The position numbers and the translations under genes were made by a program. Of a stretch of DNA of 64,000 nucleotides, positions 22,215 through 58,772 are shown piece after piece (position 1 is the stretch's first letter; each line of letters begins with the position of its first letter). The stretch is taken from the NCBI RefSeq assembly GCF_000317535.1, contig NC_019757.1, positions 1,773,001 to 1,837,000 of the forward strand. Direction: 5' to 3'. The notes below the pieces were generated by a model that was given only the letters and a program-made list of their open reading frames with translations, searched no databases and was not told where the DNA came from. The DNA is from Cylindrospermum stagnale PCC 7417. GTDB lineage: Bacteria > Cyanobacteriota > Cyanobacteriia > Cyanobacteriales > Nostocaceae.

Positions 22215-23222
22215 TTATGGGGTTTCTCCTTCTATGGCTGCTGCTGAGTCTACTTCAGTCTGCAAGTTCTTTTCTTCCGTAGTCAATTGCAAAAACACAT
22301 CTTCCAGAGTAGCGCTGACTCGCCGCATTTCATTTAAACTAAATCCTGCACGCATCAAGGCTGTAGCAATATCCCGTCCTGGTTCTTTTCCCGGTTGCGA
22401 TATTACCCGCAGATAGGCGCGGTTATCTTGGGGGGAACTATGCATGAGCGCCGTCGGCATTGATTCTACCAGACTGACACCGGAGATATTTTGCAATACT
22501 TGTTTTGCTAAAGCCGCTTCTCCCACTATCTCTAACTCATATCCTGAACCCCCTGACAACTGCGCCATCAGGTTTTCTGGGGTATTAGTCGCGACTATTT
22601 GACCACGATTAATGATGGCGACACGGCTGCAAGTCATGCTCACTTCTGGCAGAATGTGGGTAGACAGAATAATGGTGTGCGTCCCTGCAAGGCTTTTAAT
22701 TAAATTCCGCACCTCGATGATTTGCCGGGGATCAAGTCCGACGGTGGGTTCATCTAAAATGATCGCGGGTGGATCATGAACGATCGCTTGGGCGATGCCA
22801 ACTCTTTGACGATATCCTTTAGACAGTTTGCGAATAATTACCCGGCGTTTGTCTTGTAAATTGCAGCGTTCCATCGCTGCTTTGACCTTGTTGGGGCGAT
22901 CGCCTGCGGGTACTCCCTTAATTCGCGCGACAAAGTCCAAAAATCCCTCAACTGTCATTTCGGGGTATAACGGCGGTGTTTCCGGTAAATAGCCGATTCT
23001 CTGGCGCACAGAGAGGGAATTATCATGGACATCATAGCCGGCAATTCGGGCTGTACCGCTGGACGCTGGTAAATAGCCGGCTAAAATTCGCATGGTTGTA
23101 GTTTTGCCAGCGCCATTCGGCCCCAAAAACCCTAATATTTCCCCTGGTTCAACCCTAAAAGTGACATCATTTATCGCTGGGGTAGAACCGTATATTTTAC
23201 TTAAATGTTCAACTTCAATCAT
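22215..23222 (-). CDS. ABC transporter ATP-binding protein (GldA-like)
   Basis: 335-residue ATPase. It has Walker A GPNGAGKTT near residue 35, the Q-loop GYLPETPPLYPEM, the signature KLSKGYRQRVGIAQA (an LSKGY variant of LSGGQ), and Walker B AIILDEPTVGLDP with the switch His in LSTHILPEV. About 100 residues follow the nucleotide-binding domain, as in the CcmA/GldA class that partners ABC-2 permeases. It is the first gene of the minus-strand operon with the permease, the GldG-like and DUF4340 genes and possibly purU. Confidence 0.95.
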   Translation of the reverse strand: MIEVEHLSKIYGSTPAINDVTFRVEPGEILGFLGPNGAGKTTTMRILAGYLPASSGTARIAGYDVHDNSLSVRQRIGYLPETPPLYPEMTVEGFLDFVARIKGVPAGDRPNKVKAAMERCNLQDKRRVIIRKLSKGYRQRVGIAQAIVHDPPAIILDEPTVGLDPRQIIEVRNLIKSLAGTHTIILSTHILPEVSMTCSRVAIINRGQIVATNTPENLMAQLSGGSGYELEIVGEAALAKQVLQNISGVSLVESMPTALMHSSPQDNRAYLRVISQPGKEPGRDIATALMRAGFSLNEMRRVSATLEDVFLQLTTEEKNLQTEVDSAAAIEGETP

Positions 23223-23897
23223 CGGTCTGCTAGCGATCGCAATTTAATATCCACAATAGTGGCATTTTCTCCACATTCTTGTCTTGCGGCTACCATGTTA
23301 GCTTTCTCACACCACCTCCCATTCCTGCGACCCCTTCCAAGTAGGGTGCGTTAGGGAACGCACCTTCATAAAATTATCCATGCGTCTCTTCGACAATTAA
23401 ATATGCATTATCCAAAACCCTTATAGAGACCTTGCATGCAACGTCTTTACATTGTTTACCACCAGATGTCTAATAGAGAAACTTTAGATTTCAACCGATA
23501 AATTAAATTATATTTCTCCACAATTGACAAAATTCTTATTAATTAAGAATTTCATATTTTTCTCTAGCGAGAGAAATTCCAAAAAGGTAATTTCCCCGTG
23601 ATTTTATTAATAAAGCACCGTAATTCATACCAATAAAACATAAAAGATCACTTAGATATTTAGGCATTTGCCAAATAATCTATTCAGGAAATCTAGCAAT
23701 ACAAACGTATCAATTGACTAAGTATTATCAGTACACTTATTCTACTAAAAGCGAAAATAATTACTAAACAATCAAGTCTGCTGCTTCCTCTCAGCAATAC
23801 ATTTTCACTTTCTAATAGGAGTGCAAATAGAGAATGTACCCCCCCTCTTTTAAGTGGGTTTGGGGGCGATATTCAATGAACACGCTAACCGAACAGC
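23223..23897. other. Intergenic region with two small palindromic repeats
   Basis: 675 bases between divergent operons with no convincing gene. It holds a HIP1 site near 23234, a GTAGGGTGCGTT hairpin at 23341-23366 (GGTGCGTT and AACGCACC arms) and a degenerate copy of the GAGACGTTGCATGCAACGTC palindrome at 23424-23449. A C-run/G-run hairpin lies near 23839-23866, just upstream of the methylase gene. Promoters for both operons must lie here, but I cannot place them with confidence. Confidence 0.6.
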
Positions 23898-26800
23898 ATG
23901 AATTCCTCTACCGTTATGGGTGTGCTTATGTCAACATCACAACTACAAGATTCTGTCTCAAAATCACTCCAAAGTCTGAGAAACATTGATACACTCAAAA
24001 AAATGTTTTGGAGTCAACTGAACTACGAAAGAGTCAACCAACATCTTTCGCGTCGGACACTAAATAAAGCAGTTGCTAATCAACTGACAGAAGACCCATT
24101 GTTATTGGCTTCTGGGGGAATAGATAACGATTTTCATATTATTTACACCCATCTAAAATCAGAAGCTTTATCAAGACAAAGTGAAAGAATTATAGTTAAT
24201 GCATTACTCAAAGAACATCCTTATACACTATTTGTATTTTCTAACAAATCACAATCCCGCTGGCATTTTATCAACGTCAAATACGACAAAACACCTAAAA
24301 AACAAAGGCTATTTCGACGGATAACAGTTGGAGAAGGAGAACCATTACGCACAGCGACAGAAAGATTAAGTAAATTAGATTTAGAAAATCATCCCAATGC
24401 ATCAACCTTAGACATTCAAACACTCCATGATGAAGCCTTTGATGTCGAGAAAGTCACCCAAGAATTTTTTAGGGAATATCGAAAAACCTTTAAAAAAGTT
24501 GAAGCATTAATTACAGGAATTCAAGACAACGAACAAAAGCGGTTATTCACCCAAAAGCTTTTTAACCGCATCATGTTTATTGCCTTTATTCAAAAAAAAG
24601 GCTGGTTAGATTTTAAAGGTAATAGAGATTATCTCTCAGCCTTATGGAAAGATTACCAAGACGACAAAGACACATCAAACAAAAACTTTTATAGAGACAG
24701 ACTTGCACATCTTTTTTTTAGATGTTTAAATAACCCCCAGCAACATGATATTATTGGCATCAACAATGGTGGTTTTCTCAAAGAATTAATAGGTACTGTA
24801 CCCTACCTGAATGGTGGCTTATTTGAGGAAGACAACGATGATAAAAATCCTCAAATAATCATTCCTGATAATTGCATAGATAGCATTTTGCATGATTTAT
24901 TTCAACGCTTTGCATTTACCGTTACCGAAAGCACACCCTTCGATGTAGATGTCGCAGTTGACCCAGAAATGTTGGGTAAAATATTTGAAGAATTAGTTAC
25001 AGGTAGACATGAATCGGGAAGTTATTACACACCTAAACCGATAGTTTCTTTTATGTGTCGTGAAGCCATTAAAGGCTACTTGGAAAAATTCATAATTGAT
25101 AACTCAGGATTCATAATTAATCAAAAGGAGAATAGTAAAAGCATAGATGAATTTGTTGATGAACATGACGCATCTAATTTAAATAATCCAGAAGTGATTT
25201 TAGACGCATTGCATAAAGTCAAATGTTGTGATTTAGCTTGCGGAAGTGGAGCATATTTATTAGGAATGCTGCACGAATTGCTAGATTTACATCAGAGTTT
25301 AATTGCTGCTAACAATGAAATTCCCTTTAAAAGCATTTATGAAAGCAAGTTAGAAATTATCCAAAACAACCTTTATGGTGTAGATATTGATGTATTTGCG
25401 GTAAATATTGCTAGGTTGCGGTTGTGGTTATCTCTAGCTGTAGACTACGAAGGTGATAAACCCGAACCCTTACCCAACCTGAAATATAAAATTGAAATTG
25501 GTGATAGTTTAACAGCACCTAGTCCAGCAACCACAGGAATGATTAGGAGTGAGGTAATAAATCAATATCGTCAGAAAAAAGCCGAATATTTGCGAACTTC
25601 GGAAGGAGGTAAAAAGGAGAATTTAGAAAAAGAAATTGATAATTTAAAAAAAGAAGTTAGGTTGATAACCTATGGAACTCCCACAGCACAAGCTGGTTTT
25701 GATTGGGGTGTAGAGTTTGCAGAAGTATTTGCAGATGGTGGTTTTGATATTATTGTAGCCAACCCTCCTTATGTTAGACAGGAATTAATTAAACATTTAA
25801 AACCTGCATTGCAAAAAATTTATGCTTCTGTTTATACAGGAACATCTGATTTATATTGTTTCTTTTACGCGCGTGCTTTGCAACTGTTACGCGATGGAGG
25901 AATGTTAACGTTTATTACTCCTAATAAATGGTTTCGTGCAAAGTATGGGGAAAAGCTGAGAAAGTATATTGCTGAAACTTGTCAAGTTTACAGTATTACA
26001 GATTTTGGTGAGTTACCTGTATTTGCAAGTGCTGCTACTTTCCCGATGATTTTTATTTGTCAGAATGGAAAACTAGGAAGTAACTCAACTATTTTTACTC
26101 AAGTTAAATCTTTAGAACCTCCTTATCCTGATGTTTCAGAAATTATTCGAGATAAGGGTCAAAGTTTACCACATACAGCTATCAAGGATGCGAATTGGGT
26201 ACTAACACATACATCTTCTGCTAACCGTTTGCAAAAAATGGAAGCAGCAGGTATTCCCTTAGGTGAATATGTCAAAGGTCAGATTTATCGAGGTATAGTT
26301 ACTGGTTTTAATAAAGCCTTTTACATTGACGCATTAACAAGAGCCGAATTGATTGATAAAGACCCTAAAAGCGCAGAAATTATCAAGGCTCTAGTTGTTG
26401 GTGATAATGTTCGTAAATGGCAAATAAATTACCAAAATAAATGGGTTATATTTACTAAGCGGGGTCTTAATATAAACGCTTATCCTGCGGTTAAACAATA
26501 TCTTACTCAATTACGTCCGCTACTAGAACCAAAACCGCGAAATTGTTCATCATTAGATAAATGGCAAGGCCGTAAATCAGGCTCTTACCAATGGTATGAA
26601 ATTCAAGACAATATTTCCTTTTTTCAAGAATTTCAAAAAAATAAAATTGTCTTTCCTGATATTGGTAAATCTGCGAGATTTACCTTGGACAAAACAGGTT
26701 ATTATCTCGATGCAACTGCTAGTTGTATCGCTGTTGATGACTTGTATCTTCTTGGATTATTAAATTCTAATACAGTCTGGTCTTATGTAGTAGAACAGTG

Positions 26801-27005
26801 TGCTGTACTTGGTGACGCGGATAAAGGTGGACGCATTCGACTTAAATCATTTTACGTTGAAAAAATTCCCATTCCCAACGCATCAATAAAAGAACGAGAA
26901 ACAATAACTAAATTAGTTCAAAAATGCCTAGACGCAAAAGGTGTTAACTGTGAACAATGGGAAAAAGAAATAGATGAAAGAGTCGCAACCCTGTATGGAC
27001 TCTGA
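23898..27005 (+). CDS. Eco57I/type IIG-like N6-adenine DNA methyltransferase
   Basis: 1035-residue protein. The SAM-binding motif I is CDLACGSGAYLL (from residue 443) and the catalytic motif IV is NPPY (622-625, in DIIVANPPYVRQE), which specifies amino-methylation of adenine. PDVDVAVDPEMLGKIFEELV and the SGSYYTPKPIVSFM stretch are typical of the Eco57I/type ISP methylase class. The C-terminal 350 residues look like a TaqI-type target-recognition domain (LLGLLNSNTVWSYV). The N-terminal 350 residues have no PD-(D/E)xK nuclease that I can identify by eye. Alternative ATGs at 23919 and 23931 are possible; ribosome sites are weak. The PLD-helicase gene downstream suggests that nuclease and translocase functions sit in the partner. 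I infer self-DNA marking in a defence system. Confidence 0.9.
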   Translation: MNSSTVMGVLMSTSQLQDSVSKSLQSLRNIDTLKKMFWSQLNYERVNQHLSRRTLNKAVANQLTEDPLLLASGGIDNDFHIIYTHLKSEALSRQSERIIVNALLKEHPYTLFVFSNKSQSRWHFINVKYDKTPKKQRLFRRITVGEGEPLRTATERLSKLDLENHPNASTLDIQTLHDEAFDVEKVTQEFFREYRKTFKKVEALITGIQDNEQKRLFTQKLFNRIMFIAFIQKKGWLDFKGNRDYLSALWKDYQDDKDTSNKNFYRDRLAHLFFRCLNNPQQHDIIGINNGGFLKELIGTVPYLNGGLFEEDNDDKNPQIIIPDNCIDSILHDLFQRFAFTVTESTPFDVDVAVDPEMLGKIFEELVTGRHESGSYYTPKPIVSFMCREAIKGYLEKFIIDNSGFIINQKENSKSIDEFVDEHDASNLNNPEVILDALHKVKCCDLACGSGAYLLGMLHELLDLHQSLIAANNEIPFKSIYESKLEIIQNNLYGVDIDVFAVNIARLRLWLSLAVDYEGDKPEPLPNLKYKIEIGDSLTAPSPATTGMIRSEVINQYRQKKAEYLRTSEGGKKENLEKEIDNLKKEVRLITYGTPTAQAGFDWGVEFAEVFADGGFDIIVANPPYVRQELIKHLKPALQKIYASVYTGTSDLYCFFYARALQLLRDGGMLTFITPNKWFRAKYGEKLRKYIAETCQVYSITDFGELPVFASAATFPMIFICQNGKLGSNSTIFTQVKSLEPPYPDVSEIIRDKGQSLPHTAIKDANWVLTHTSSANRLQKMEAAGIPLGEYVKGQIYRGIVTGFNKAFYIDALTRAELIDKDPKSAEIIKALVVGDNVRKWQINYQNKWVIFTKRGLNINAYPAVKQYLTQLRPLLEPKPRNCSSLDKWQGRKSGSYQWYEIQDNISFFQEFQKNKIVFPDIGKSARFTLDKTGYYLDATASCIAVDDLYLLGLLNSNTVWSYVVEQCAVLGDADKGGRIRLKSFYVEKIPIPNASIKERETITKLVQKCLDAKGVNCEQWEKEIDERVATLYGL

Positions 27006-27117
27006 TAATTGATAATTAATATTGTAGGTGGGGTTTCAGATTCTAGCCAACAATTCATCATATATATTCAGTATCAAATGTTGGGTTTCGTTCCTCAAGC
27101 CAACCTGTATATATACT

Positions 27118-27438
27118 GAGTTTAGCTCCTTAAATGAATTGTAATGAGAGCTATTTGCTAACTTTGTGATGCGTCAGGGGACGCATCCTACCTGTAAAAT
27201 TTGTTTCTTAACCCACCTTCTTAATTTTGTGAGATATGAGAAGATTATCTGTAGGGTGCGTTCCCTAACGCACCTTTTGAGTTTAGCTCCTTAAATGAAC
27301 CGTAATGAGAGCTATTTGTTAAATTTGTGATGCGTCAGGGGACGCATCCTACCTGTAAAATGTGTTTCTTAACCCAGCTTCTTAATTTTGTGATATATCA
27401 GAAGATTAACTGTAGGGTGCGTTCCCTAACGCACCTTA
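27118..27438. repeat. 161-bp tandem duplication carrying paired hairpins
   Basis: Two adjacent, roughly 95% identical copies (27118-27278 and 27279-27438). Each contains an ATGCGTC/GACGCAT hairpin and a GGTGCGTT/AACGCACC hairpin of the GTAGGGTGCGT family seen elsewhere in the window. They fill most of the roughly 520-base gap between the methylase and helicase genes. No gene is visible in the gap. Confidence 0.92.
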
Positions 27439-27527
27439 TTAAGACTTTTAACGACACAAACCATACCCGATATTTGCTGTTTATTGTTAATGCGTAAGTT
27501 CTAAATTTGATTAAACAATTAAAAACT

Positions 27528-30500
27528 ATGCCCACACACGACATAATAGACAACCGAAATCAAAAATTAGTAGACCAAATAAACCGCATACTCGACACTA
27601 CAGAATCTGCAAAATTTGCAGTTGGTTACTTCTTTCTTTCCGGTTTCACCGCTATAGCTAAACCCCTCACCAATATTAAACAACTCCGCTTATTAATTGG
27701 AAACACCAGCAACCGCGAAACTATCGAACAAATAGCCCAAGGATATCGCAGATTAGAATTAATAGCCGATAAAATCGAAGCCCAAACCTACCCAAAACGC
27801 AGCGAAGAAAAACGGATGGCTCAAGATACAGCAGCTAATATCCGTTCTAGCATAGAACTAATGGATCAGACAGACGAAGCTGAAACATTAGTTAAAAATC
27901 TCGTGCAGATGATAGAAGAAAAACGGCTGCAAGTCCGTGTTTACACCAAAGGAACATTACACGCTAAAGCCTATATTTTCGATTATGGTACTATATATGA
28001 TGCTAAAGGTAGATTATTAGAACGGACAGAGAAAGGTATCGCTGTAGTTGGTTCTTCCAACCTTACCCTTTCTGGTATCTCCCATAATACAGAACTCAAC
28101 GTCATCATTCACGGTAACGATAACCATAGAGAATTAACTAACTGGTTTGAAGAACTTTGGAACGAAGCAGAAGATTTTAATGAAGCTTTAATGCGGGAAA
28201 TGAAACAATCTTGGGCTGTTTCTCCAGTCACTCCTTATGATATTTATATGAAAACTCTCTATAGTTTAGTCAAAGATAGATTAGAAGATATAAACCCCAA
28301 AGATTTAATTTTACAAGATGACGAAATTACTAAACAATTAGCTGAGTTTCAAAAAGTTGCTGTTAATAACGCAGTTCAAAATATCCGCGACTATGGAGGT
28401 GCTTTTGTTTCTGATGTTGTCGGACTAGGTAAAAGCTTTATCGGTGCTGCAATTGTTAAACGTTTTGAACAAACAGAACGCGCACGTCCTTTAATTATTT
28501 GTCCCGCACCGCTGCTAGAAATGTGGGAACGTTATAATGAAGTTTACCAGCTAAATGCTCGCATTTTATCAATGGGAATGCTGAAAGAAGGTGAGGAAAG
28601 CGGGTTTAAGGTTTTATTAGAAGATTTCAAATATAAGGATAGAGATTTTGTTTTAATTGACGAAAGTCATAATTTGCGAAATCACAATACCCAAAGATAT
28701 AAAGTTTTAGAAACTTTTTTAGCTGCTGGTAAACGTTGTTGCTTGCTAACTGCAACTCCCCGCAATAAAAGTGCTTGGGATATTTACCACCAATTAAAGC
28801 TATTTCACCAAGATGATAATACAGATTTACCGATAGACCCCCCAAACTTAAAGGAATATTTCCAGTTAGTCGAAAAAGGAGAGAAAAAATTACCAGAATT
28901 ACTCTCGCATATTCTGATTCGTCGCACCCGTAACCATATCTTACGTTTTTATGGACGTGACTCACAAACCCATAAAGATGTAGACTCAACTAACTTTCGA
29001 GAATACCTCGACGGAACCCGACGCGCTTATGTGGTTGTCGGTGGTAAACATCGTTTTTTCCCGAAGCGAGAATTAGAAACTATTGAGTACAGTATTGAGG
29101 ATACATACCAAGGACTGTACCAGGAATTACGTCAATACATGGGTAAGTCTCGCAAGCGTCAATTAGTCAAACCACCCACTAATGAACTTAGCTATGCGCG
29201 ATATGGACTTTGGAATTATGTTTTAAAGGATAAACAAAAGCAAGAACCTTATAATACTTTACAGCGTGCGGGTTCTAATCTGCGCGGACTGATGCGAGTG
29301 TTGTTATTTAAACGCTTTGAGTCGAGTGTTTATGCTTTCCAAGAAACTATTAAAAAATTATTGTTAGTCCATGAAAGATTTGTCAATGCGCTATCTCAAG
29401 GTTTTATTCCCGCAGGAGAAGAAGCGCAAACTCTGCTATCGGAAGATGTTAACGCAGGGGAGGAGCAAGATTTGATTGATGGGTTACGTCAAGTTTCTGA
29501 TAAATATGATTTAGCAGACTTTGATGGAAAGAAGTTACAGCAGCATATCGCACATGATATTAATATTTTTAAAAAGATTATAGCATTAGTTGAGCCAATT
29601 ACGCCTGATAAAGATGCTAAATTACAAACTTTGCTTAAATGGTTAAATAAACCTCTTCTTAGGGATAAAAAAAGGTTAATTTTTACTCAATATGCTGATA
29701 CTGCTAGATACCTTTATGAGAATTTAAACCCCCAAGGTAAATGTGATGATATTGAGGTAATTTATAGCGGTAGCAATAAGAATAAATCTCGTTTGGTGGG
29801 AAGATTTGCACCTAATGCTAATCGGGAATATAAATTTAAGTCTGGGGAATCGGAAATAAATACCCTTGTTGCTACCGATGTTTTAGCAGAAGGGTTAAAT
29901 CTCCAAGATGGGGATTTAATTATAAATTATGATTTACACTGGAACCCAGTTAAATTAATTCAACGTTTTGGCAGAATTGATAGAATTGGCAGCGAAAAGG
30001 ATATAATTTATGGATATAATTTTTTACCTGAGTTAGGTATTGAACGCAATTTAGGTTTAAGGCAAAAGCTGAAAAATAGGATTCAGGAAATTCATGATAC
30101 TATCGGTGAAGATGCAGCGATTCTTGATGGTAGTGAACAATTAAATGAAGAAGCAATGTATGCTATTTATGAGCAAGAAGCTAAACAATTGAGTCTCTTT
30201 GATAATGACGAAGAGGATTTTTTGAATTTAAATGAAGCTGAGGAAATTCTCAGAAAATTACAGAAAGATAATCCAGAAGAATTTGAGCGAATTGCTAATT
30301 TACCCCAGGGTATCCGCACTGCTAAATTCTCATTACAGCATCAGGGTACTTTTGTTTTTTGTGAAGCATCAGACCCAAATCGACCGGATATCAAGGGTTA
30401 TCAACAATTGTTTTTATTAGATAATAAGGGAAATATAGTTTCTAGAGACATTCCCCGCATTTTGGGTGCAATTAAAGCTGATTCTACTATTCCTAGTATA

Positions 30501-30911
30501 ACAGTTCCTCAAAACCATAACTCTCAGGTTATGGGTGTGAAAAATCTATTTGCTGAAGAGGTGAAACATCGTCAAGCAGAAAGAGAATTTAACCAGCGCT
30601 TGACTCAGGGACAACGATATATTTTACGTGAGTTAAGAATGTTATTTAAAATAATAGTTGACGAAGAAGTAAAAAGTCAAATAAATATTTTAGAAAAGGC
30701 GTTTCGCAGTTCTCTGACTCAAGTGGTCAATCGGGAATTAAATATACTGCGACGCAATGGAATAACAGGTGAAGAATTGTTTAATCAACTGGTGCGTATT
30801 TACCGCCAGCATAATATACAGGAGTGGGTGAATCATCATAGTATTTCAGAATTATCTCGGCCAATTCCCATGATTATATGCAGTGAGGGATTTATAATTC
30901 ATAATTCATAA
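27528..30911 (+). CDS. PLD-nuclease/SNF2-type helicase fusion, putative restriction protein
   Basis: About 1130 residues, numbered from the TTG at 27507; the ATG at 27528 is preferred. The N-terminal phospholipase-D-like domain has the HxK(x)4D half-site at H152 (LHAKAYIFD) and GSSNLTLSG beyond it. One HKD per chain suggests a dimeric nuclease, as in BfiI. A superfamily-2 ATPase follows, with GLGKS at 306-310, DESH at 385-388 and LLTATP. The helicase C domain has IFTQYADTARYL, VLAEGLNLQ and QRFGRIDRIG. A roughly 250-residue C-terminal region is unassigned. This architecture belongs to ATP-driven nucleases of defence systems. Paired with the adenine methylase, it probably restricts unmodified DNA. 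Confidence 0.92.
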   Translation: MPTHDIIDNRNQKLVDQINRILDTTESAKFAVGYFFLSGFTAIAKPLTNIKQLRLLIGNTSNRETIEQIAQGYRRLELIADKIEAQTYPKRSEEKRMAQDTAANIRSSIELMDQTDEAETLVKNLVQMIEEKRLQVRVYTKGTLHAKAYIFDYGTIYDAKGRLLERTEKGIAVVGSSNLTLSGISHNTELNVIIHGNDNHRELTNWFEELWNEAEDFNEALMREMKQSWAVSPVTPYDIYMKTLYSLVKDRLEDINPKDLILQDDEITKQLAEFQKVAVNNAVQNIRDYGGAFVSDVVGLGKSFIGAAIVKRFEQTERARPLIICPAPLLEMWERYNEVYQLNARILSMGMLKEGEESGFKVLLEDFKYKDRDFVLIDESHNLRNHNTQRYKVLETFLAAGKRCCLLTATPRNKSAWDIYHQLKLFHQDDNTDLPIDPPNLKEYFQLVEKGEKKLPELLSHILIRRTRNHILRFYGRDSQTHKDVDSTNFREYLDGTRRAYVVVGGKHRFFPKRELETIEYSIEDTYQGLYQELRQYMGKSRKRQLVKPPTNELSYARYGLWNYVLKDKQKQEPYNTLQRAGSNLRGLMRVLLFKRFESSVYAFQETIKKLLLVHERFVNALSQGFIPAGEEAQTLLSEDVNAGEEQDLIDGLRQVSDKYDLADFDGKKLQQHIAHDINIFKKIIALVEPITPDKDAKLQTLLKWLNKPLLRDKKRLIFTQYADTARYLYENLNPQGKCDDIEVIYSGSNKNKSRLVGRFAPNANREYKFKSGESEINTLVATDVLAEGLNLQDGDLIINYDLHWNPVKLIQRFGRIDRIGSEKDIIYGYNFLPELGIERNLGLRQKLKNRIQEIHDTIGEDAAILDGSEQLNEEAMYAIYEQEAKQLSLFDNDEEDFLNLNEAEEILRKLQKDNPEEFERIANLPQGIRTAKFSLQHQGTFVFCEASDPNRPDIKGYQQLFLLDNKGNIVSRDIPRILGAIKADSTIPSITVPQNHNSQVMGVKNLFAEEVKHRQAEREFNQRLTQGQRYILRELRMLFKIIVDEEVKSQINILEKAFRSSLTQVVNRELNILRRNGITGEELFNQLVRIYRQHNIQEWVNHHSISELSRPIPMIICSEGFIIHNS

Positions 30912-31096: not shown

Positions 31097-33190
31097 ATGG
31101 TGAACTCTACCCTCGTTGCCACACTCTATGTCAACCCTGTGACAGGGAATGATGCCAATGCTGGTTCCCGGTTGAGTGCCTTTAAAAGCCTTAGCCGTGC
31201 CCTTAAAGTTGTCAAATCACCGGGAATCATTCAACTGGCACCTGGAACTTACAGCGCTGCTAGTGGTGAGGTTTTTCCCCTTGTCATTCCTACGGGGTTG
31301 CTGGTGGTGGGTAACGAAGCAAAAAAAGGTCAGGGGATTGTGATTTCCGGGAGTGGCGAGTATCAAAGCCCTAGCTTTGGGGTGCAAAATATCACAATCC
31401 TGTTGCTAGGCGATGCCAGTCTTTTGGGTGTAACGGTGACGAATTCTACAGCCAAAGGTACTGGTATCTGGATTGAATCGACAGCACCCACTTTGGCTAA
31501 TAATACTTTGGCTAACTGTGGACGGGAAGGTATATTTACGACCGGCACTGCCAAACCTGCCATTGTGGATAATCTGTTTGTGCAAAATCTTGCCAGTGGG
31601 TTATTTATGGCACGTAATAGCAAGGGGGAAGTGCTGCGGAATGTTTTTCAAAATAACTCTTTGGGCATAGCTATTAGTGACTTTGCGGCTCCTTTGGTAG
31701 CAAATAACAAACTATCAGCAAACCGCACGGCGATCGCGCTTTCTCGCGATGCTAAACCAGTATTGCGGCAAAATCTGATTACCAAAAATACCCAAGGTGG
31801 TCTGTTGGTGAACGGAAATGCTGTTCCTGACTTAGGTAACGCCCAAGATCCTGCTGACAATATTTTTCGTGAACAGGGGGAATTTGATTTACAAAATTTA
31901 TCATCACAAAAGCTGATATCTGTGGGTAATCAGTTGAATCCTACCCAGGTGAAGGGCCTAGTAGAATTTATCGCCACTACAGCAGATACACCTAATTTAG
32001 TAGGAGTTAATTCTGGCTTTTCTGATTTGGATGGACATTGGGCGGCGGCTTTTGTCTCAGCTTTGGCAAATAAAGGCTTGATTAGTGGCTTTGGAGATGG
32101 CACTTTTCAACCAGAAACGCCAATTACTCGCGCTCAATATGCGGCTTTGATTACTAAAACCTTTCAGTTATCTGCCAGTAATAAACAGAGTAAATTTACG
32201 GATATTAAACCGGACTTTTGGGCAGCTTCAGCTATTTTGAGTGCTGCTGAGATGGGTTTTGCCAGTGGTTTTCCTGATGGGACATTTCGACCAGGGCAAA
32301 ATTTGACTAAGGTTCAGGCTCTAGTATCAGTTGTCAATGGGTTAAAATACAGCGGCGGCAATCCGAATGTATTAAGTGTTTACACTGACCGCGGCCAAAT
32401 TCCCAGTTATGCCACCAATGCGATCGCCGTTGCTACCCAAAAACTGCTAGTGGTGAATTACCCGCAAATAGACCAAATAGAACCAATGCGGGATATCACT
32501 CGCGCTGAGGTGGCGGCATTAATTTATCAGGCATTAGTCGCCAGCGGCAAAGAAAAAGCGATCGCCTCGCCCTATATTGTCAATCCTGATGCTGATATTC
32601 CCGGATTCAGCGACTTGGTGGGACATTGGGCCGAAGGATTTATCCGGGGTTTAGTGAGTATGGAATTAACTCAAGGTTTTGCCGATGGCACTTACCAACC
32701 AGATAAACCGATGACTCGCGGCCAATATGCGGCTTTAGTGACGGCTGCCTTTAACCCTGCACCCAAACGGACAGCGCCGGAATTTACCGACGTACCCAAA
32801 GATTTTTGGGCAGCTAGCGCCATCCAGATAGCTGCTAGCGGTGGTTTTGTCAGCGGATTTAGCGATCGCACCTTCCGCCCTGGACAAAACGTGCAACGGC
32901 TACAGGTAATTGTTTCCTTAGTCAATGGACTGGGACTATCTACCAGCGATAACGAAGTTTTATTGTCATATAGCGATCGCAATACTATTCCCGAATATGC
33001 CCGGCCAGCCATAGCCACTGCCACCAAACAAACAATTATTGTTAATTATCCCGACCTAAAGCTGCTGGCGCCAACGCGAGAAGCTACACGGGCCGAAGTT
33101 GCAGCAATGGTTTATCAGGCATTAGTTGCCATCGGACGCGCCAAAGCCATCAACTCGCCCTACATTGTGGTGTTGCATATTACCAGTTGA
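31097..33190 (+). CDS. DUF1565 beta-helix protein with six S-layer homology modules
   Basis: 697 residues. Residues 8-290 form a DUF1565 right-handed beta-helix (YVNPVTGNDANAGS, LAPGTYSAASGEVFPL, then repeated NxxxxN turns). SLH modules start near 305, and six can be drawn as two tandem triplets. Each triplet runs F(S/T)D..GHWA, (F/Y)TD...DFWAASAI, Y(T/S)DR..IP.YA and ends in SPYIV. SLH modules bind secondary cell-wall polymer and anchor surface proteins. There is no signal peptide, and an in-frame TAA lies just upstream of the only ATG, so the N-terminus looks truncated compared with the paralogue at 40437-42197. Confidence 0.9.
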   Translation: MVNSTLVATLYVNPVTGNDANAGSRLSAFKSLSRALKVVKSPGIIQLAPGTYSAASGEVFPLVIPTGLLVVGNEAKKGQGIVISGSGEYQSPSFGVQNITILLLGDASLLGVTVTNSTAKGTGIWIESTAPTLANNTLANCGREGIFTTGTAKPAIVDNLFVQNLASGLFMARNSKGEVLRNVFQNNSLGIAISDFAAPLVANNKLSANRTAIALSRDAKPVLRQNLITKNTQGGLLVNGNAVPDLGNAQDPADNIFREQGEFDLQNLSSQKLISVGNQLNPTQVKGLVEFIATTADTPNLVGVNSGFSDLDGHWAAAFVSALANKGLISGFGDGTFQPETPITRAQYAALITKTFQLSASNKQSKFTDIKPDFWAASAILSAAEMGFASGFPDGTFRPGQNLTKVQALVSVVNGLKYSGGNPNVLSVYTDRGQIPSYATNAIAVATQKLLVVNYPQIDQIEPMRDITRAEVAALIYQALVASGKEKAIASPYIVNPDADIPGFSDLVGHWAEGFIRGLVSMELTQGFADGTYQPDKPMTRGQYAALVTAAFNPAPKRTAPEFTDVPKDFWAASAIQIAASGGFVSGFSDRTFRPGQNVQRLQVIVSLVNGLGLSTSDNEVLLSYSDRNTIPEYARPAIATATKQTIIVNYPDLKLLAPTREATRAEVAAMVYQALVAIGRAKAINSPYIVVLHITS

Positions 33191-58675: not shown

Positions 58676-58747
58676 GGGGGCTGTAGCTCAACGGAGGAGC
58701 AGGGGAATCATAACCCAAGGTTGGAGGTTCAACTCCTCCCAGTCTCC
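58676..58747 (+). tRNA. Degenerate tRNA-Met-like gene, anticodon CAU
   Basis: Acceptor GGGGCTG/CAGTCTC with two G-T pairs, D stem GCTC/GAGC with a short loop, T stem GGAGG/CCTCC with loop TTCAACT, anticodon loop ATCATAA (CAT at 58709-58711). The anticodon stem GGGGA/CCCAA pairs at only two positions. It ends 25 bases before the SDR start codon. Confidence 0.6.
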
Positions 58748-58772
58748 ACTTGTCACACTAGTGAGGGGAAGA

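Follow-up and report, generated by a model that had tools for sequence, protein, structure and literature searches.

A predicted two-gene ATP-dependent restriction-modification system joining an Eco57I-type methyltransferase and an HKD-SNF2 protein in Cylindrospermum stagnale PCC 7417

In type I, type III and type ISP restriction enzymes, cutting relies on the same target-recognition domain (TRD) as modification, and in type ISP enzymes, for example LlaGI and LlaBIII, motor, nuclease, gamma-class methyltransferase and one TRD act as one enzyme, which methylates one strand of an asymmetric site and cleaves where motors converge. Nucleases of the phospholipase D (PLD) type are found in SauUSI, a type IV enzyme, and in CglI and NgoAVII. 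According to the description in PMC7913695, SauUSI is a fusion of a PLD nuclease with a superfamily 2 (SF2) ATPase that is able to work alone, the PLD domains of two protomers form a shared active site, its own SRA-type TRD reads the methylated target and no partner methyltransferase is described. For CglI and NgoAVII, the same source places PLD-B3 and ATPase on separate chains (R2H2), with the B3 domain serving as TRD (PMC7913695); the ATP-dependent CglI has an asymmetric site, and each R2H2 complex carries one active site, two complexes being thought necessary for a double-strand break (PMC5737866). HKD-SF2 helicases in operons of the restriction-modification (R-M) type have also been described earlier (PMC2292703, PMC10853773, PMC12839542). 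Among these, the Type-2 DUF499-centred systems related to bacteriophage exclusion (BREX-related, BR; Hma-like) are reported to join an effector with an N-terminal HKD nuclease and an SNF2 helicase to an N6-methyltransferase, a DUF499 ATPase and, in 98% of taxa, DUF3780 (PMC12839542). Here, a pair of genes is described from a stretch of 64,000 nucleotides of Cylindrospermum stagnale PCC 7417 (referred to as the window; C2:1773001-1837000 of a 7.6-Mb genome in four contigs), which encode a gamma-class N6-adenine DNA methyltransferase (MTase) with its own TRD and a fusion of an HKD (PLD) nuclease with an SNF2 ATPase (referred to as the helicase). The parts are known, while no report of a test of the two-gene combination was found; likewise, no literature report of a two-gene pair of HKD-SNF2 and Eco57I type was found, such a search being no proof of absence.

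Considering the domains, the conserved catalytic residues, the co-inheritance, the exchangeable TRD and the shared N-terminal domain, all of which can be read from the sequences, it is rather probable that the pair represents a two-gene ATP-dependent R-M enzyme, in function a split type ISP/type III enzyme. An earlier note on this DNA had described an Eco57I-like adenine methylase with its own recognition region beside a one-HKD PLD domain fused to an SNF2-type ATPase, and the Pfam matches above cut-off agree with this description: Eco57I (PF07669, 5.8e-47) and TaqI_C (PF12950, 1.2e-11) for the MTase, PLDc_2 (PF13091, 2.8e-14), SNF2-rel_dom (PF00176, 1.8e-9) and Helicase_C (PF00271, 3.2e-16) for the helicase. 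Both open reading frames (ORFs) exist as proposed, with corrected starts. Since homologues mostly begin matching near residue 11 of the ORF at 23898 and near residue 8 of the ORF with TTG at 27507, the MTase likely starts at 23928, 10 codons further 3', and the helicase probably at 27528, the TTG lying 7 codons too early; the HKD histidine formerly numbered H152 becomes H145.

The catalytic residues of both proteins are well preserved. The NPPY motif is kept in 19/19 aligned MTase rows, and all 50 paired MTases contain a motif of the form [N/D/S]PP[Y/F/W]. In the helicase alignment, 18 catalytic positions are identical in 25 of 27 rows, the window included, the exceptions being L009, in which Glu replaces the Walker A Lys, and the distant L033, with Asn in place of the HKD Asp and two Ser/Thr changes. 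Across ten comparisons, the ratio of nonsynonymous to synonymous substitutions (dN/dS) of the helicase ranges from 0.054 to 0.095. The Pfam scan of the C-terminal 250 amino acids (aa) of the helicase gave no domain, including none for the reading of modified cytosine, and the best stretches of the best 60 of 77 PDB matches all lie inside positions 242-907 of the helicase profile. The AlphaFold model of the helicase is poor (mean predicted local distance difference test, pLDDT, of 53), and its matches to SNF2-type and other SF2 proteins have low template-modelling scores, which makes the fold comparison weak. The MTase model (pLDDT 65) comprises an alpha-beta N-terminal domain, for which a restriction endonuclease fold was not confirmed.

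The gene-neighbourhood survey, suggested as a check in the earlier note, revealed a conserved pairing. A helicase scan of genome contigs gave 33 loci of close relatives, with the closest matches in cyanobacteria, and MTase sequence lies beside the helicase in 27 of them, on the same strand every time. A single MTase ORF of at least 900 aa is present in 18 of the 33, counting L025, in which the last part is a separate ORF. L026, with no local MTase, has one 8.2 kb upstream. In L017 the helicase is truncated, and the genome holds a second MTase with a helicase 114 bp after it (cut by the locus end). L019 is situated close to the start of a contig and has a homologue on another contig of the same genome, the contig of L030 starts inside the helicase, L031 carries an internal deletion in the helicase, and L008 has a local orphan helicase with one distant MTase match in its genome. 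In the survey of the phylum, the helicase profile matched at 1e-60 in 58 of 386 genomes, counting profile matches with or without HKD, and an MTase-profile match is held by 26 of the 39 neighbourhoods fetched from these matches (27 with a 17-bit match in L082). Over all loci, mechanically assigned labels for 147 helicase-profile proteins gave a gamma-MTase partner in 59, a type III-like one in 49, DUF499 in 4, one chain in 1 and none seen in 34, the last including contig ends.

A quick tree of 85 rows places the window in a fully supported clade of nine, seven with a gamma-MTase and two with none seen (L019 and L021, the latter having a 494-aa ORF that matches the N-terminal third of the MTase). 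Separate from it are further clades with gamma-MTases, a clade linked mostly to type III and the helicases linked to DUF499, on a tree in which several branches are long and the deep order is unsure. The distances of helicases and MTases are strongly correlated (r = 0.91 for 50 pairs and 0.76 for 21 dereplicated pairs), with 0 of 2000 permutations as high in each case, and in eight pairs from other clades the gap between the two genes is -25 to 0 bp. Plasmid matches extend to archaea, Deinococcus and Actinobacteria.

A further comparison concerns the TRD. Among 81 locus pairs with helicases more than 80% identical, TRD identity ranges from 16% to 87% and does not follow helicase identity (rho of -0.34 and -0.11 for the TRD blocks). 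The N-terminal blocks of the MTase track the helicase (rho of 0.72 and 0.68), as does the variable segment 376-475 (0.60); the relation is weak for the catalytic block (0.35) and is 0.11 for the last 50 residues. Identities of helicase, MTase core and TRD are 98/96/43% for L014-L022, 96/83/17% for L001-L020 and 98/79/22% for L012-L028. Since TRDs swap independently of near-identical helicases, specificity can be placed in the MTase. For cutting, use of the same TRD is the simplest reading, because a nuclease with a fixed specificity of its own would attack the host after a TRD switch. In two distant relatives of the window pair, the exchange may even be programmed. L098 (L098:10113-12518) contains a spare TaqI_C ORF in inverted orientation; a perfect inverted repeat of 300 bp lies between this ORF and the MTase, and a Resolvase-family gene follows the ORF. 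Lactococcus pJM1F (L215:7794-10230) shows an inverted TaqI_C fragment, inverted repeats of 20-23 bp and an annotated Mpi-family invertase. Both likely represent an invertible TRD beside a serine recombinase, which would give phase-variable specificity in this MTase family. Within the window, the search for a spare TRD gave none.

A second line of evidence comes from the N-terminal domain of the MTase. In six of the 39 neighbourhoods (L076, L077, L081, L082, L102 and L103), Pfam identified a same-strand sigma-70-type gene, mostly adjoining the helicase; those of L076, L077 and L081 contain an AAA_22 domain too. The N-terminal domain of the MTase was found on eight sigma-70-type ORFs (two of them in L103), and in 8/8 cases it matches the N-terminal domain of the own helicase clade only; the remainder of the MTase has no match on these ORFs. 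L139, which belongs to the clade of the window, holds both an MTase and a sigma-70-type gene. In L032, with a partial helicase 69% identical to that of the window, a sigma-70-type gene lies between MTase and helicase, and its match to the N-terminal domain covers 33 residues (E 0.002). The sigma part of the partners matches the PADLOC model MzaA in 5/5 scanned (7.8e-24 to 2.6e-60). Among ORFs of at least 100 aa in the window, no sigma-70-type gene with the N-terminal domain was detected. Because sigma-70-type proteins next to the same helicases carry this domain again, in a clade-matched form, it probably docks different readers to the HKD-SNF2 protein.

The retention of the nuclease motif depends on the partner. 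The HKD signature, defined as HxK and G[ST]xN, occurs in 57 of 59 helicases paired with a gamma-MTase (the exceptions L025 and L033 are truncated ORFs), in 4/4 DUF499-linked helicases, in 17 of 34 without a partner seen and in none of the 49 whose neighbour is a type III-like methylase. Since the signature is lost with type III-like neighbours and kept with gamma-MTases, it seems that the HKD can be spared where a different nuclease is available and is retained where there is none. In L145, the sole locus of type III type scanned with Pfam, a helicase without PLD match is accompanied by DUF4391, N6_N4_Mtase and a ResIII protein that itself contains an endonuclease domain. The former assignment of the type III-linked helicases as HKD proteins was withdrawn on account of the 49/49 absence. 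As a separate observation, a sister clade of SNF2 helicases (L142, L145, L154, L161, L168, L106 and L214), common in viral contigs, adjoins a type III-like Mod (DPPYNTG) and mostly a DUF4391-like small gene and a Res-like gene (Pfam for L145 only); it has no HKD signature.

Altogether, it is most likely, as far as sequence comparison can tell, that the two genes work together, sparing self-marked DNA and cutting unmarked invading DNA. The earlier note had likewise distributed modification, recognition, motor and cleavage over the two proteins as a restriction system, and conserved pairing, co-inheritance, TRD exchange and HKD retention argue for it. In the proposed mechanism, the MTase would methylate one strand of a short asymmetric site and thereby mark self, and its N-terminal domain would dock it to the HKD-SNF2 protein. 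At an unmethylated site, the same TRD would license the motor, ATP hydrolysis would move the complex along the DNA, and cleavage would need the meeting of two HKD half-sites. We infer this movement, the recruitment through the MTase and the half-site cleavage from the arrangement of the parts. The helicase would have no specificity of its own, so that a change of TRD would alter marking and cutting together. A single HKD on each chain is consistent with a requirement for dimerisation, by analogy with SauUSI and CglI. As methylation of one strand leaves unmethylated sites after replication, a requirement for two complexes would protect self DNA, which is the boldest and least supported step of the proposal. 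If true, the pair would add a compact ATP-dependent R-M architecture with specificity in one swappable domain, of interest for phage resistance and for the barrier that cyanobacteria pose to transformation.

The claim is directly testable in Synechocystis PCC 6803, a strain in standard laboratory use: on its plasmid pSYSX lies a distant pair, consisting of the methylase WP_011153869 and the helicase WP_011153866 and separated by a small gene and a VapC gene. Compared with the window, identity is 29% over the length of the helicase, and 27% in the N-terminal part and 25% in the catalytic block of the MTase. M.Ssp6803IV and M.Ssp6803V are both assigned to pSYSX (PMC6604393); the former is reported to produce GAm6AGGC, with 1446/1451 sites methylated in the wild type, and the latter corresponds to slr6095-slr6097 (PMC7296061). 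The pSYSX gene table contains two DNA methylases, the HKD-SNF2-linked one and a type I one, such tables being incomplete. Because the other methylase is the type I enzyme M.Ssp6803V, the HKD-SNF2-linked one is by elimination very probably M.Ssp6803IV, that is, an N6-adenine enzyme with an asymmetric site. No paper was found that names slr6050 together with Synechocystis.

Several observations weigh against the R-M assignment. The link to M.Ssp6803IV is one by elimination from an incomplete gene table and between distant homologues, and the pSYSX MTase has an Eco57I match and no TaqI_C match. The six loci with a sigma-70-type partner hold no MTase beyond the 17-bit match in L082, so that, judged from these loci, the HKD-SNF2 protein is not always part of an R-M system. 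In the clade of the window, the two genes form no tight operon (gaps of 166 to 8173 bp). The local MTase is split, fragmentary or absent in L006, L007, L008, L010, L021 and L027, with the helicase catalytic residues kept, and the Calothrix helicases L007/L008 are intact and under purifying selection (dN/dS 0.061) with no intact adjacent MTase. The loss of the HKD beside type III genes falls mostly into one clade and thus represents few independent events. Furthermore, the one-chain ORF of L080 (1496 aa; L080:7965-12455) gives no support to a one-enzyme reading. It had been considered as a natural fusion and was rejected as an in-frame deletion product: compared with L078/L079, helicase residues 1-761 are joined to the MTase from about residue 488, and Helicase_C match, motif VI and the MTase N-terminus are missing.

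Helicases without an intact local MTase can be explained by recent loss, by an MTase acting in trans, for which the genome of L007 offers a second, distant pair (L136), or by another role of the helicase; draft-assembly errors may lie behind some broken MTases. Other loci show decay on both sides, namely L009 (split MTase and lost Walker lysine) and L025 (both genes broken). The tolerated loss of the MTase agrees with a nuclease unable to act without it.

The sigma-70-type partners suggest a wider, joint reading, which we regard as doubtful but worth stating. The HKD-SNF2 protein would be a general motor-nuclease platform to which exchangeable readers dock via the shared N-terminal domain, the reader being the TRD-methylase in the window and sigma-70 regions in the relatives. 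Each complex would contribute half a PLD active site, with a cut where motors from two separate unmethylated asymmetric sites meet, and in the relatives the restriction nuclease would be guided by a transcription-initiation factor, perhaps to promoters or to the transcription of invaders. In any case, the occurrence of the N-terminal domain on sigma-type proteins raises the question of what else steers this motor-nuclease.

The same loci can be read in the opposite direction, as shared neighbourhood only: the MTase would be a type IIG-derived or lone enzyme, and the HKD-SNF2 protein an independent nuclease-helicase of SauUSI-like or repair-like kind with DNA recognition of its own. Helicases that persist under purifying selection without a local MTase, sigma-70-type partners in its place, cargo that splits the two genes in the window clade and the example of SauUSI as a PLD-ATPase fusion able to work alone are all in line with this explanation, and the PADLOC models nearest to the MTase are those of type IIG (1.2e-107). 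Nonetheless, it is unlikely, since mere neighbourhood does not agree with the co-inheritance over 21 dereplicated pairs, the abutting genes in other clades and the clade-matched N-terminal domain on MTases and sigma-type partners alike. Repeated exchange of the TRD in the MTase that protects the host would also be incompatible with an independent cutter of fixed specificity. As for a type IIG origin, no PD-(D/E)xK or ExK-type signature was found in the first 260 aa of the MTase of the window and eight clade mates by a motif check that a diverged active site would escape; ELK-like motifs occur in the N-terminus of some distant MTases, e.g. L141 and L175.

Less probable still, and in our judgement quite improbable, is a BREX/Hma-like function, in which the pair would block phage replication without cutting, the HKD would be regulatory and further parts would come from other loci. 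The composition of the Type-2 BR systems given above, a DUF499 gene on C4 of the same genome and BrxX as the top match of the MTase model among solved structures point in this direction. The DUF499 gene on C4, though, is accompanied by a methylase-like gene (957 aa, DUF1156), with a helicase frame some 11 kb off, and DUF3780 occurs in 5 of 386 genomes, that of the window not among them. In the 39 neighbourhoods no meaningful DUF499 match was obtained (one 12-bit match was set aside) with a query that did recover the DUF499 genes of L130-L134. The helicases linked to DUF499 reach 102-127 bits, compared to 1405-2198 for the rows of the window clade, and lie beyond a branch of 3.36. Epigenetic regulation, with the MTase as the useful part and the helicase as a remodeller or decaying leftover, could draw on the reported link between altered gene expression and methylation by M.Ssp6803V, another Synechocystis R-M system (PMC7296061), and is very improbable in view of the low helicase dN/dS, the conserved HKD and ATPase residues, and a defence-like pattern of patchy distribution and of deletion at the corresponding place in a sister genome.

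The coordinates of the pair and of the sigma-70-type genes in related loci are given in Table 1. Upstream of the pair lies an ABC-transporter gene (22215-23222, minus strand) and downstream an SLH/DUF1565 gene (31097-33190); the GC content over 24-30 kb, which covers most of the pair, is 0.347-0.365 and lower than in most of the window. In the same-genus genome G030, the ABC-SLH interval comprises 1,220 bp (between C49:8658 and 9879) and had been considered as an empty site. This was rejected, as it holds a Uma2 gene and a match of 79 columns, 78% identical, to the HKD region of the helicase (window 27931-28008). Because of this remnant, the system was probably once present in G030 and then lost, as expected of a defence gene. 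The Uma2 family of this interval is also cargo between MTase and helicase in other loci.

In general, the gap between MTase and helicase is a cargo site in the clade of the window. Uma2, PIN and 23S_rRNA_IVP genes were identified there by Pfam in L002 and L001, and further cargo elsewhere was judged by eye. The gap in the window contains repeats only and no cargo gene; the two direct repeats (27117-27276 and 27278-27437) are 94% identical. Short palindromic repeats of the TAGGGTGCGTT...AACGCACC type occur upstream of the MTase (23342-23364) and inside both 160-bp repeats (27117-27437). Elsewhere in the window, ARAGORN reported a tRNA-like gene with a two-base anticodon (tRNA-???) at 58676-58749, directly after tRNA-Gly and tRNA-Glu.

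Table 1. Features of the MTase-helicase pair (positions in the window) and sigma-70-type genes of related loci (locus:positions).
Feature	Position	Strand	Remark
Gamma-class N6-adenine DNA methyltransferase with own TRD	23928..27005	+	1025 aa
MTase N-terminal domain, aa 1-200	23928..24527	+	proposed docking domain
SAM (S-adenosylmethionine)-binding motif I, DLACGSGAY, aa 435-443	25230..25256	+	
Catalytic motif IV, NPPY, aa 612-615	25761..25772	+	
Exchangeable target-recognition region, aa 700-975	26025..26852	+	overlaps TaqI_C Pfam match
Intergenic region	27006..27527	.	522 bp; two 160-bp direct repeats
HKD (PLD) nuclease-SNF2 ATPase fusion	27528..30911	+	1127 aa
Single HKD motif, HAKAYIFD, H145-x-K147-x4-D152	27960..27983	+	followed by GSSN and NTE (aa 175-189)
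Walker A, GLGKS, aa 299-303	28422..28436	+	
Walker B/motif II, DESH, aa 378-381	28659..28670	+	
Helicase_C domain including motif VI (QRFGRIDR)	29625..29990	+	
C-terminal about 250 aa	30165..30908	+	no Pfam match; candidate MTase or DNA contact
Sigma-70-type gene	L076:7838-13486		
Sigma-70-type gene	L077:11273-16921		
Sigma-70-type gene	L081:2-6871		
Sigma-70-type gene	L082:4764-6599		
Sigma-70-type gene	L102:10256-12259		
Sigma-70-type gene	L103:1253-5157		
Sigma-70-type gene	L139:6737-8023		
Sigma-70-type gene	L032:2618-4213		

The earlier note had seen parts shared with the defence system DISARM in a minimal two-gene form. The part classes are indeed the same as in DrmMI, DrmD and DrmC (MTase, SNF2 helicase and PLD), while they are fused and split otherwise, and the closer comparison did not hold: the helicase reaches 138.1 and 87.6 bits against NCBIfam DrmD cut-offs of 610 and 950, and no DrmA/B-type gene was found at the locus. 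The absence of other DISARM genes, also noted before, was confirmed insofar as none of 10 further proteins, a part of those encoded in the window, gave a PADLOC match at 1e-5 and the sole PF09369 (MZB/DUF1998) match of the genome lies on C4. Besides the DUF499 gene and the methylase-like gene next to it, that contig (431,821 bp; L039, 175523-176554, 214613-214849, 259007-259384) holds a frame resembling an SNF2 helicase, a fragment resembling an MTase and the PF09369 match.

With respect to the helicase, the PADLOC model C3a139 ('HKD+Snf2', 1.5e-91) and phrog_26785 (3.9e-108) share the HKD-SNF2 architecture over most of its length, which means that this kind of protein is already catalogued. 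C3a139 is a protein model and phrog_26785 a phage family without stated function, and neither describes a two-gene system. A literature search gave no source for the name C3a139. The Mza system is comparable through MzaA, which shows that sigma-like components of defence loci are already catalogued; in contrast, the partners described here carry the MTase-type N-terminal domain and adjoin HKD-SNF2 proteins, and the window has no such gene.

Among the PLD enzymes, the window pair resembles SauUSI in the fusion of PLD nuclease and SF2 ATPase, and differs from it by the partner MTase with its TRD. It resembles CglI/NgoAVII in the combination of PLD nuclease and helicase, and differs by having both on one chain. 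The Type-2 BR systems likewise combine HKD-SNF2 and N6-MTase; membership was rejected, since the one DUF499 match of the genome lies on C4 and not at the locus, DUF3780 was not found in the genome, and the helicases are only remotely related. The classical types differ in composition. Type I comprises HsdR, HsdM and a separate HsdS, whereas in the window the TRD is part of the MTase chain and the 10 neighbours gave no PADLOC match. An active type IIG enzyme shares the MTase-TRD chain and was rejected by the motif check, owing to the missing N-terminal nuclease signature. The two-subunit logic with recognition in the MTase is that of type III, and a related helicase clade adjoins DUF4391, Mod and Res; the window MTase, in contrast, is of the gamma class with NPPY and an Eco57I/TaqI_C architecture instead of the DPPY beta class, and no Res was seen, the 10 neighbours giving no PADLOC match. 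From type ISP, a single polypeptide with an Mrr-type nuclease, the pair differs by its two chains, its HKD nuclease and its SNF2-type motor, the sole one-chain case (L080) being a deletion product.

The earlier statement that the arrangement is unlike known types was too strong, since the ISP/III logic, HKD-SF2 proteins in R-M-type operons and C3a139 were already known. Altogether, the pair would work like type ISP and type III, belongs to neither of them nor to type I, type IIG, DISARM or Type-2 BR, and is predicted from its sequence to carry out ATP-dependent restriction.

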